Source: Candidatus Aenigmatarchaeota archaeon (GTDB lineage: Archaea; Aenigmatarchaeota; Aenigmatarchaeia; CG10238-14; SCSR01). Taken from it: a DNA stretch of 64,000 bases. The position numbers and the translations under genes are program-made. The notes beneath the pieces are model-generated. The model saw only the letters and a list, made by a program, of their open reading frames with translations, was not told the origin of the DNA and searched no databases. The stretch covers positions 80,181 through 144,180 of the forward strand of contig JACPAE010000004.1 of assembly GCA_016181005.1 (NCBI GenBank), read 5' to 3'. Numbering within the stretch: position 1 is the stretch's first letter; each line of letters starts with the position of its first letter. This document shows positions 34,897-37,082 of this stretch, in pieces.

Positions 34897-34904
34897 ATTT
34901 AAAT
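34897..34904 (+). promoter_or_regulatory. TATA box of DGR target gene 1
   Basis: The element atttaaat followed by cctttgct lies 31 bases before ATG 34928. The same string (atttaaatcctttc) precedes the DGR-related gene at 45 kb (45087-45094), and tatttaaatt precedes the gene at 41529. The shared promoter suggests common origin and expression. Confidence 0.55.
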
Positions 34905-34927
34905 CCTTTGCTATGCTCTATTTAACT

Positions 34928-35617
34928 ATGACAACAACCAGCCAGCTATACCTGCCAATAAAAGGCATGCAATACTCAGTTATACCGGAAGTGTCTCTTC
35001 TTGGAAAAGACTTGTGGGAAGCGCAATTATACGCCCAGGATAATGGACTGGTAGTCTTGTCTTCTCCTGACATAAACAGGCTGGCAAGAGCCGTAAAGGG
35101 CGACAATCCAGACAGGCAATTCCTAAGATACGCAAGGGAACAGGCTGAAAAGCAAGGAACTTCATTAAACGACAACGACGCAAAAGACGGATATAAACGG
35201 CTTCATGACGGATTATGGAAACAATACGTTGCTATAGCAAGGGAAATTCTTGTATGGACAAGAGACGCACAACCTATTAATCACCCCATGATTGTTTTGA
35301 AAGATATGCCTGTAACGTCCCATCTAATAACGGACTATAGAGTTGAAAAGCAGGGCGACGGCTATAGAATAGTCGAAGCTGTTGTAACGTCAGCCAACTG
35401 GATGAAAGAGGACGGGGCAATAACTCCTGAAATGGCACAATTGTTAGGCGCCGAACCCAATACACATGTCTGGACAAATCCAAATCCTGATTATGAAAAT
35501 GGACTGAGGGCTCTCGGGTGGGACTTCAGGGGCCGTGAGAGGCCGTACCTGGTCTCGGACTGGGAGCCTTGGGACAGGAACTCCTATGGGGGTTCGCTTT
35601 TGGGTAGAAGGCTGTAA
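34928..35617 (+). CDS. DGR target protein 1 (variable C-terminus)
   Basis: About 229 residues, not recognised by family. No signal peptide or membrane segment is visible. The N-terminal 190 residues are conserved sequence of unknown function; the last 35 (GWDFRGRERPYL..., ending GSLLGRRL) are encoded by a variable repeat that matches the template repeat at 35852-35981 except at adenines. Diversified residues are thus surface loop positions, as in C-type-lectin-like DGR targets, though that fold is not proven here. The frame begins at ATG 34913; ATG 34928 (MTTTSQLYLP) is preferred because it aligns with the start of the 45-kb gene and fits the TATA spacing. Confidence 0.8.
   Translation: MTTTSQLYLPIKGMQYSVIPEVSLLGKDLWEAQLYAQDNGLVVLSSPDINRLARAVKGDNPDRQFLRYAREQAEKQGTSLNDNDAKDGYKRLHDGLWKQYVAIAREILVWTRDAQPINHPMIVLKDMPVTSHLITDYRVEKQGDGYRIVEAVVTSANWMKEDGAITPEMAQLLGAEPNTHVWTNPNPDYENGLRALGWDFRGRERPYLVSDWEPWDRNSYGGSLLGRRL
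35508..35607 (+). repeat. DGR variable repeat (VR1)
   Basis: Aligned with the template repeat, VR1 differs at 16 positions and every one is an adenine in the template: 12 A to G and 4 A to T, with no change at C, G or T. Two in-frame 15-base blocks of the template (35884-35898 and 35940-35954) are absent. Adenine-specific change is the hallmark of mutagenic retrohoming. Confidence 0.93.
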
Positions 35618-35851
35618 GCTGTAAATGAAACATTAACAATTAGATTTATTCTATAAATCATAATTCTATATTCCTGGGCTATTGCTGGACAATGATGAAG
35701 GCAATGTCTGGGCTACACGCCTGTCCATAGCGCATTAGGGCTTTTTCCGTTTGGCCATGAAATACAGAGGCGACAGATAGTAGCTATGACGGATGACATG
35801 ACTAGTGCGAAACCTGAAGCTTCAGTGAAAACTTGGTGGATGGGCTAAGAT
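35618..35851 (+). ncRNA. DGR spacer/leader upstream of the template repeat
   Basis: 234 bases without a supported open frame between target 1 and the template repeat. In DGRs the template is transcribed as an RNA with flanking spacer needed for priming, so this is the likely 5' part of that RNA. It contains the 99-base segment (35709-35807) repeated at 45812-45909, with three ATGAC strings near its end. Boundaries of the RNA cannot be read from sequence. Confidence 0.5.
35709..35807 (+). repeat. DGR leader repeat, copy 1
   Basis: This stretch (tgggctacacgcctgtcc to gacatgactagtg) matches 45812-45909 with three substitutions and one single-base gap. It lies 92 bases after target 1 and ends 45 bases before the template repeat. 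A weak imperfect hairpin (tagctatg / catgacta) sits at its 3' end. Confidence 0.9.
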
Positions 35852-35981
35852 AAGCTCTCAGGTGGAACTTCAGGGACCGTGAGAATATGTATCACGAAAG
35901 GCCGAACCTGAACTCGAACAGGGAGCCTTGGAACAGGAAATCCAACGACCTGATCTCCAATAGGGGTTCGCTTTTGAATAA
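35852..35981 (+). repeat. DGR template repeat (TR)
   Basis: Non-coding copy of the end of target 1, rich in AAC/AAT codons in the target's frame (RWNFRDRENMYHERPN..., NLNSNREPWNR), the codons that reach most amino acids when adenines are randomised. It ends 21 bases before the reverse transcriptase start. The 3' end of similarity (ggggttcgcttttg) is the probable initiation-of-homing stretch shared by TR and VR. Confidence 0.92.
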
Positions 35982-36002
35982 CCCAGACCGCCCAGGATTT
36001 TT

Positions 36003-37082
36003 ATGAAGACGTACAATAAAATCTTTAACAAACTATGCTCCTTAGAGAATCTTAAACTGGCATTCAAAAAAGCCAAGAAAGGCAAAAGCAAGAAATGGTA
36101 CGTAAAGGAATTTGAATGCAATTTGGATAATGAATTGACGAAATTAAAAATGGAACTGGATAATCAAACCTACAGACCACAGACATTAAAGAGATTCATA
36201 GTAAGAGATCCGAAAACAAGGGTCGTTCACGCATCAGCTTTCAGAGACAGAGTAGTTCATCATGCTATATGCAACATAATAGAACCTGTATTCGAGAAGA
36301 TTTTCATTAATGACAGCTATGCCAACAGGAAGAAAAAAGGAACTCTTTCGGGATTAAATAGATTCGACAAATTCAAACATAAAGTTACTAGAAATCGTGA
36401 GTTATTAAGGAGTGCTAAAGACGGCAATATGACTGTAGGTTATGCCCTAAAAGCAGATATAAGGCATTATTTTGATACTGTTGATTTGGAAATCCTAATG
36501 GAAATCATCCAAAAGAAGATAATCGACAGCAAAGTCCTGCGGTTAATAAAAGCAATTCTGGACAACCATGATTTCAAAACTAAAGGAAAGGGAATGCCTC
36601 TTGGAAATTTAACGAGCCAGTTTTTCGCTAATGTCTATCTTAATGAGTTGGATTATTACGTGAAGCACAAACTCAAGGTAAAATATTATATTCGATATGT
36701 GGATGATTTTGTTATTCTGCACAGGTCTAAAGAAAAACTAGCGCTGTACAGGTGGATGATAGACAACTTTCTAAAGCAGAGACTTAAGCTCGAATTGCAT
36801 CCTGAGAAATCGAAAATCGTCCCCTTACATTATGGCGTAAAGTTACTAGGTTTTCGTGTGTTCTACTACTATAAGCTACCACGGAAAAGCAATCTAAGGA
36901 TTTTTGAAAAGAAATTAAGTATCTATACATTGACACCCAGAGAGAGAGAGAGCATATTGAAAAACTGAATAAAATACTTGAAGGGGTGGTTTGGTTACGC
37001 TGCACAAGGAAATACTTACAAATTGAGAAAGAGAATTGTTAAAAGAACCAATAATATGATTCGAAATCAAATAAAATTATGA
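36003..37082 (+). pseudogene. DGR reverse transcriptase, interrupted by an in-frame TGA
   Basis: A retroelement reverse transcriptase that would copy the TR RNA with adenine errors. Palm motifs: KADIRHYFD (Asp152), the DGR-typical GMPLGNLTSQ at 197-206, and YVDD at 232-235. The open frame stops at TGA 36966-36968 after 321 residues, but the same frame continues GWFGYAAQGNTYKLRKR to a TGA at 37080-37082, and this tail resembles the usual C-terminus of DGR enzymes. Alternatively two compensating indels occurred, in the GA run (36939-36951) and the GGGG run (36983-36986): the intervening other frame reads REREHIEKLNKILEG. The final stop overlaps the arcC start. No accessory protein gene (Avd) is seen. 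Confidence 0.85.

Follow-up and report, generated by a model that had tools for sequence, protein, structure and literature searches.

Segments with bulge–helix–bulge geometry interrupt the template repeats of archaeal diversity-generating retroelements and are probably spliced out before mutagenic reverse transcription

We found that the template repeat (TR) of an archaeal diversity-generating retroelement (DGR), located in the 64,000-nucleotide stretch of DNA analysed here (the window), contains two 15-nt segments that are missing from the variable repeat (VR). Similar segments occur in other DPANN DGRs, and most have the geometry of a bulge–helix–bulge (BHB) splice site. On this evidence it is very probable that the template RNA carries BHB introns, that these are spliced by EndA and RtcB before mutagenic reverse transcription, and that the reverse transcriptase (RT) copies the spliced RNA.

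Results

A diversity-generating retroelement with a gapped repeat pair

The target ORF, leader RNA, TR and RT ORF lie in this order on the + strand (34913–36968; Table 1), and ORFs and alignments confirmed this arrangement, which an earlier note had read from the same DNA. The source genome (740 kb in 5 contigs, 92% complete) contains a single TR and a single VR. It belongs to the same class as an Aenigmatarchaeota MAG (G039), in agreement with the DPANN-type archaeal host that had been proposed. TR and VR were aligned with a scheme that tolerated changes at adenines, heavily penalised other changes and permitted deletions from the TR. The results revealed that 13 of the 26 aligned template adenines were substituted (9 A to G, 4 A to T) compared to none of the 71 aligned C, G or T positions (Fisher p = 2e-9), so the many changes at C, G or T that the earlier note would have counted against a DGR did not appear. 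When all 73 loci with a TR/VR pair were pooled, 1,090 of 2,003 template adenines were changed, compared to 44 of 4,809 other bases. The earlier note had thus named a real pair and rightly confined its differences to adenines, but its count of 16 (12 A to G, 4 A to T) was too high, probably through gap placement and a ragged 3′ end, and the pair is not gapless: the TR given there (130 nt) was 30 nt longer than the VR (100 nt) because the two 15-nt segments are absent from the VR.

The RT carries the motifs LGNLTSQ and YVDD. Among solved structures it matched PDB 8ub7 ('Reverse transcriptase') best, well above group II RTs; we take this structure to be the Bordetella DGR enzyme. By motifs and best solved match the RT is therefore of the DGR type, as its GxPLGNLTSQ-type motif had suggested. 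Collectively, these data confirmed that the locus is a DGR in an archaeon. The first reading was correct but incomplete, having passed over the intron-like TR segments, the family of the leader RNA and a lesion at the RT C-terminus. There was no Avd-sized ORF between TR and RT in the window's ORF listing, the locus had no DNA match in phage records, and one distant RT was the sole match among viral contigs.

Table 1. Features of the retroelement in the window, with the evidence for each
Feature	Position	Strand	Description and evidence
DGR target (variable protein)	34913..35617	+	234 aa; predicted C-type-lectin-like fold; VR at C-terminus; ORF, AlphaFold2, VIA-align
Variable repeat (VR)	35510..35606	+	97 nt; aligned to TR, 13 A-only substitutions
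Leader RNA, Rfam RT-16 (RF03019)	35673..35853	+	cmscan 89.5 bits, E 9e-15
Template repeat (TR)	35854..35980	+	127 nt; contains two segments absent from VR
Putative TR intron 1, AATATGTATCACGAA	35884..35898	+	absent from VR; BHB CGTG[AG^A]...CACG[AA^A]; helix 35878-35881 with 35893-35896
Putative TR intron 2, ATCCAACGACCTGAT	35940..35954	+	absent from VR; BHB CAGG[AA^A]...CCTG[AT^C]; helix 35934-35937 with 35949-35952
DGR reverse transcriptase	36003..36968	+	321 aa to in-frame TGA; RVT_1 E 1e-22, phrog_1423 E 1e-104, PDB 8ub7 E 5e-43
RT frame lesion: GA run 36939-36952 and G4 36983-36986	36939..36986	+	C-terminal comparison with relatives

Leader RNA, target protein and RT C-terminus

The leader was identified as a full-length RT-16 RNA, matching model positions 1–158 of 158 with a score far above the cut-off of 50 bits, and it ends at the base immediately before the TR. 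The same family precedes the TR in 16 of 17 related loci.

The target was modelled with AlphaFold2 at good confidence (pLDDT 84.8, pTM 0.86), and a C-type-lectin-like fold was predicted. The nearest solved structures were TaqVP, a DGR protein of Thermus aquaticus (5vf4, Z 9.0), and a C-type lectin variable protein from Nanoarchaeota (5ioo, Z 8.7), and since a VIA-align Z near 8 is the usual background and is also reached by ordinary C-type lectins, the comparison supports the fold class, not the function. By analogy with other DGRs, the target may bind a partner or a host surface. A genome of the same genus, G002, encodes three targets on three contigs (L032:8871-9713 on the − strand, L033:5829-6575 and L034:5975-6712 on the − strand), whose two non-VR domains are swapped around the VR relative to the window target, an apparent circular permutation. 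Relatives of the target protein were also seen on L042, L043, L040, L039 and L041 (G003, G004, G011, G046 and G071), genomes in which no RT match was found.

The RT ORF ends at an in-frame TGA (36966–36968) about 38 codons short of the end of its relatives, which have about 350 aa and whose end corresponds to 37082 here. Two small length differences, one in the GA run and one in the G4, displace the reading frame of the C-terminus over about 12 codons, creating the TGA; frame 3 reads EHIEKLNKILEG, matching KILDGWFGY (G012) and KMLEGWFGY (G002). The full-length frame was probably the original one because the start of the next gene overlaps the distant stop (37079–37082). The break may be an assembly or sequencing error or else a recent inactivation. 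A BHB intron at the TGA was considered and rejected, as nothing but a shift of frame within the GA run, combined with one G fewer downstream, brought back the KILEGWFGY-like motif seen in relatives.

Template-only segments across DPANN loci

The RT was found in 27 of 156 genomes of the window's phylum and in 90 of 279 genomes of the phylum of a Nanoarchaeota MAG (L004). TR segments missing from the VR, 50 in all, were present in 28 of the 73 DPANN loci with a TR/VR pair (19 of 22, 6 of 24 and 3 of 27 loci in the three sets). At the window's two sites, G002 has segments of 15 and 18 nt and G012, from the same family, has segments of 15 and 21 nt; the TR of G039 contains three. Segments were 15–58 nt long, and their lengths were frequently not multiples of three (17, 20, 22, 23, 28, 32 and 58 nt). 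Several unspliced TRs contain in-frame stops, and once the segments are removed the TRs read as Asn-rich C-type-lectin variable-region sequence. Together, the lengths and the stops imply that the segments must be removed. Every assembled local VR lacked every segment with no scatter in length, and a remote target of G002 (C9) also lacked the segment at the aligned first site. Optional retention by the VR, an idea raised by multiples of three in the first four genomes, was abandoned after segments of 17, 22, 23, 28 and 32 nt turned up and all VRs proved to be free of segments.

Three alignments (L165, 11 nt; L174; L046) were judged unreliable and do not enter the intron counts, whereas L183 was counted despite its relaxed form. 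Also excluded were gaps of 3–6 nt in L189, L190, L193 and L194, where the VR is shorter than the TR at sites with no BHB motif.

BHB structure and covariation

BHB RNA is known to be cleaved after the second bulge base (reportedly described by Marck and Grosjean 2003 and Xue 2006), and the junctions deduced from the VRs agree with such cutting. A BHB consists of a 4-nt helix and two 3-nt bulges (PMC7714728). Without regard to structure, we collected for each segment every junction that the VR permits when mutation is confined to adenines, and a 4-bp helix ending two positions before each cut was then sought. Among the first 47 segments, 35 had an exact 4/4 helix with two 3-nt bulges at a VR-allowed junction; 3,000 random re-placements gave 5.2 on average and never more than 14. 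At least three of the four helix pairs were present in all 47, with 12 having only three. With Watson–Crick pairs alone, a 4-bp helix was found in 24 of the first 40 segments, and both window introns have a 4/4 Watson–Crick helix. The relative register peaked at 0 (35 segments) and reached at most 10 elsewhere; shifting one helix arm by one base left three helices. Furthermore, 29 of these 35 segments had an inner helix of at least 3 bp that began directly after a first bulge of 3 nt, compared to 0–2 for any other bulge length. The two window introns have an inner helix of just 2–3 nominal bp, and both are minimal, at 15 nt, and of the bulge–helix–loop type. The outer duplex averaged −6.3, compared to −5.0 when re-paired (sd 0.3), and the local minimum-energy fold retained the helix in only 25 of the 47 segments.

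The helices vary in sequence (CAGG/CCTG, TGCG/CGCA, CTCG/CGAG, CGTG/CACG, CACG/CGTG, AACG/CGTT, GACG/CGTC, GCGA/TCGC and others). At window intron 1, both sides of the helix are changed in G012 (CACG/CGTG), and G002 has a wobble (CGTG/CGCG). In shuffle tests on 45 distinct cores, which are inflated by relatedness and in which choosing among allowed junctions slightly favours pairing, 92.7% of cells were paired compared to 47.2% after shuffling, double-change cells numbered 136 compared to 42.6, and the covariation score was 1.06 compared to 0.21, with slid structures reaching at most 0.19. The effect is large enough, and the slid controls low enough, to leave kinship and junction choice little room as explanations of the covariation. 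The evidence that the BHB helix is maintained by compensatory change is overwhelming. G-U cells outnumbered A-C cells in these cores (24 compared to 8), which favours the TR-sense (+ strand) RNA as the molecule that folds. The first base of the intron was A in 45 of 45 cores. In addition, introns tend to sit within AAC or AAT codons, and the AA of these codons contributes to the bulge; 31 of 46 junctions lay inside such a codon, and these codons make up 23% of TR codons.

Held-out prediction

A BHB scan whose predictor had been set beforehand, and in which AAA was the only first bulge accepted, was applied to 40 newly retrieved loci. It predicted two introns wholly within TRs, in L176 at 2929 (21 nt) and in L177 at 2967 (18 nt), and both matched a VR gap exactly in position and length. 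Three further matches fell outside the TR or crossed its edge. A VR was present in 25 other fresh loci: 24 of these showed no gap above 6 nt, and in L183, the exception, the 34-nt segment is of a relaxed form that the scan missed. Canonical BHB motifs were also present in four TRs without a reachable VR (L068, L149, L150 and L158).

Splicing machinery of the host

EndA (PF01974) is encoded in the source genome, scoring above the cut-off there and in 12 of 13 relatives, and RtcB (PF01139) is encoded in all 14 genomes. Since, moreover, the tRNA-Trp of the source genome carries a BHB intron, the splicing pathway exists in the organism. Its EndA has a single domain in a frame of 199 aa, which suggests an alpha4 enzyme; EndAs of this type are described as strict (PMC4090602).

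The RtcB gene of the source genome is split, on the − strand, by two frame-breaking hairpin insertions of 32 nt (L096:2780-2811) and 31 nt (L096:2660-2690), both absent from the same-genus genomes G001 and G003. The 31-nt insertion is an exact BHB (CGAT[AT^T]...GTCG[TT^T]), and when it is taken out, GFDINCG is recovered. The 32-nt insertion, read by eye, has three of four helix pairs and an inner helix. The insertions are likely a pair of BHB-spliced mRNA introns in the splicing ligase's own gene; alternatively, the interrupted gene may be a pseudogene. A general flood of BHB introns in the mRNAs of this genome was considered and rejected, since an ORF-joining scan gave 183 matches compared to 170–224 at shifted junctions, with no enrichment.

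Intron evolution

In a tree built from the RTs of 41 loci, labelling by intron presence required 5 changes compared to 13.9 when shuffled, and 19 of 21 intron-bearing rows clustered in a single group of 22 rows, which was moderately supported (91/88). L153 groups beside the intron-bearing L147, L148 and L157. Its TR reads TTCGAATGC, where the other three have an intron after CTCGAA (TTCGAA in L148). This looks like an exact intron loss, as expected of spliced cDNA returning to the TR.

Discussion

We infer splicing of the template RNA from DNA: from the junctions, the motif and the gene content. The RT-16 leader, TR and RT would be co-transcribed, or the leader and TR alone. EndA would cut the short hairpins from the TR RNA at the BHB motif and RtcB would join the TR exons, after which the RT would copy the spliced RNA and misread adenines. 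With splicing preceding reverse transcription, the VR of the C-type-lectin-like target would be replaced by spliced cDNA, consistent with the A-only substitutions and the intron-free VRs, while the TR DNA retains the segments, which occur in no VR examined. Several observations speak against splicing, namely the 12 of 47 partial helices, the loss of the helix from many local minimum-energy folds (retained in 25 of 47), the minimal window introns facing an EndA that would be of the strict alpha4 type, the interrupted RtcB and an RT that, as assembled, has no C-terminus.

Splicing may also take place without having a role of its own. The hairpins might bind the RT or an accessory protein, protect adenines, or be neutral passengers removed by the host, a reading compatible with splicing that we consider a serious possibility while leaning somewhat against it. 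DGR RNAs need structure and the hairpins sit among mutable codons; however, sister loci with a similar TR have no introns (L153 compared to L157), indicating that the hairpins are not required for homing, so that it is the neutral-passenger form that remains.

Explanations without splicing fare worse. If the polymerase jumped on the template at each stem, aided by the short AA match between the bulges, the RT itself would skip the hairpins. Every segment can indeed fold, and most junctions offer a 2-nt match between the bulges, but a jump over the stem base would lose both arms, whereas the 5′ arm of the helix is retained here, and a 4-bp helix lies between the two 3-nt bulges that hold the staggered cuts, an arrangement that is the EndA substrate. 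Skipping is made improbable, too, by loops as short as a few nt and as long as about 50 nt and by the uniform absence of the segments from local VRs. Hardly credible is a gain of segments by the non-coding, and hence free, TR after the last homing, or their loss from the VR by ordinary deletion and selection, since the VRs of 28 loci from two phyla carry A-only mutations around the sites of the missing segments, an independent exact loss at the BHB site would be needed every time, and the remote G002 target lacks the segment as well.

Returning to splicing of the template RNA, we offer a tentative and rather doubtful proposal for what the introns might do. They could act as a one-way lock and a licence, such that the target is rewritten only by RNA that has passed through the host tRNA-splicing machinery. 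Intron-bearing TR DNA could then neither be overwritten tracelessly by spliced cDNA nor spoil the target via plain DNA gene conversion, and DGR activity would be coupled to tRNA-splicing capacity.

If splicing is confirmed, the archaeal tRNA-splicing enzyme would, as far as we found, have its first known retroelement template here, and the segments would form a large new class of EndA substrates beyond tRNA and rRNA. Testable splice sites are available in many uncultivated DPANN genomes. The findings also suggest that TR–VR search tools that look for gapless pairs may miss intron-bearing DGRs.

DGRs and BHB introns are each known, and we found no record of their combination. In the open-access literature (subscription papers lie outside it), no paper was found to contain both 'diversity-generating retroelement' and 'bulge-helix-bulge', and the searchable papers on archaeal and global DGRs do not mention such TR introns. 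BHB introns of archaeal tRNA, rRNA and cbf5 mRNA share with the window the 4-bp helix, the two 3-nt bulges, the cutting geometry and the presence of EndA (PMC7714728). Beyond tRNA and rRNA, only cbf5 and one 5′ UTR have been described as hosts (PMC7714728), whereas the host RNA here is a retroelement template, and its presumed spliced product is seen via a DNA copy. The DGRs of Nanoarchaeota and of virus ANMV-1 (Paul et al. 2015, PMC4372165) have in common with the window a DGR-type RT, A-only transfer, a C-type-lectin-like target and DPANN hosts; the text of that paper on archaeal DGRs describes no splicing, insertion, deletion or gap between TR and VR and uses 'intron' only for group II introns.

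The window leader is a member of the Rfam RT-16 family that here directly adjoins a DGR TR. With the DGR of Bordetella phage BPP-1, which we take to be the source of the best solved RT match, the window shares a TR RNA intermediate, adenine mutagenesis and replacement of the VR. We know of no natural intron in the BPP-1 TR. A td group I intron engineered into that TR was reportedly spliced before homing. That intron was placed by hand, whereas the putative introns of the window TR are natural. TR introns that are absent from the VR amount to nature's own counterpart of the classic experiment in which an intron reveals an RNA intermediate, and they provide direct evolutionary evidence that archaeal DGRs home via processed RNA.
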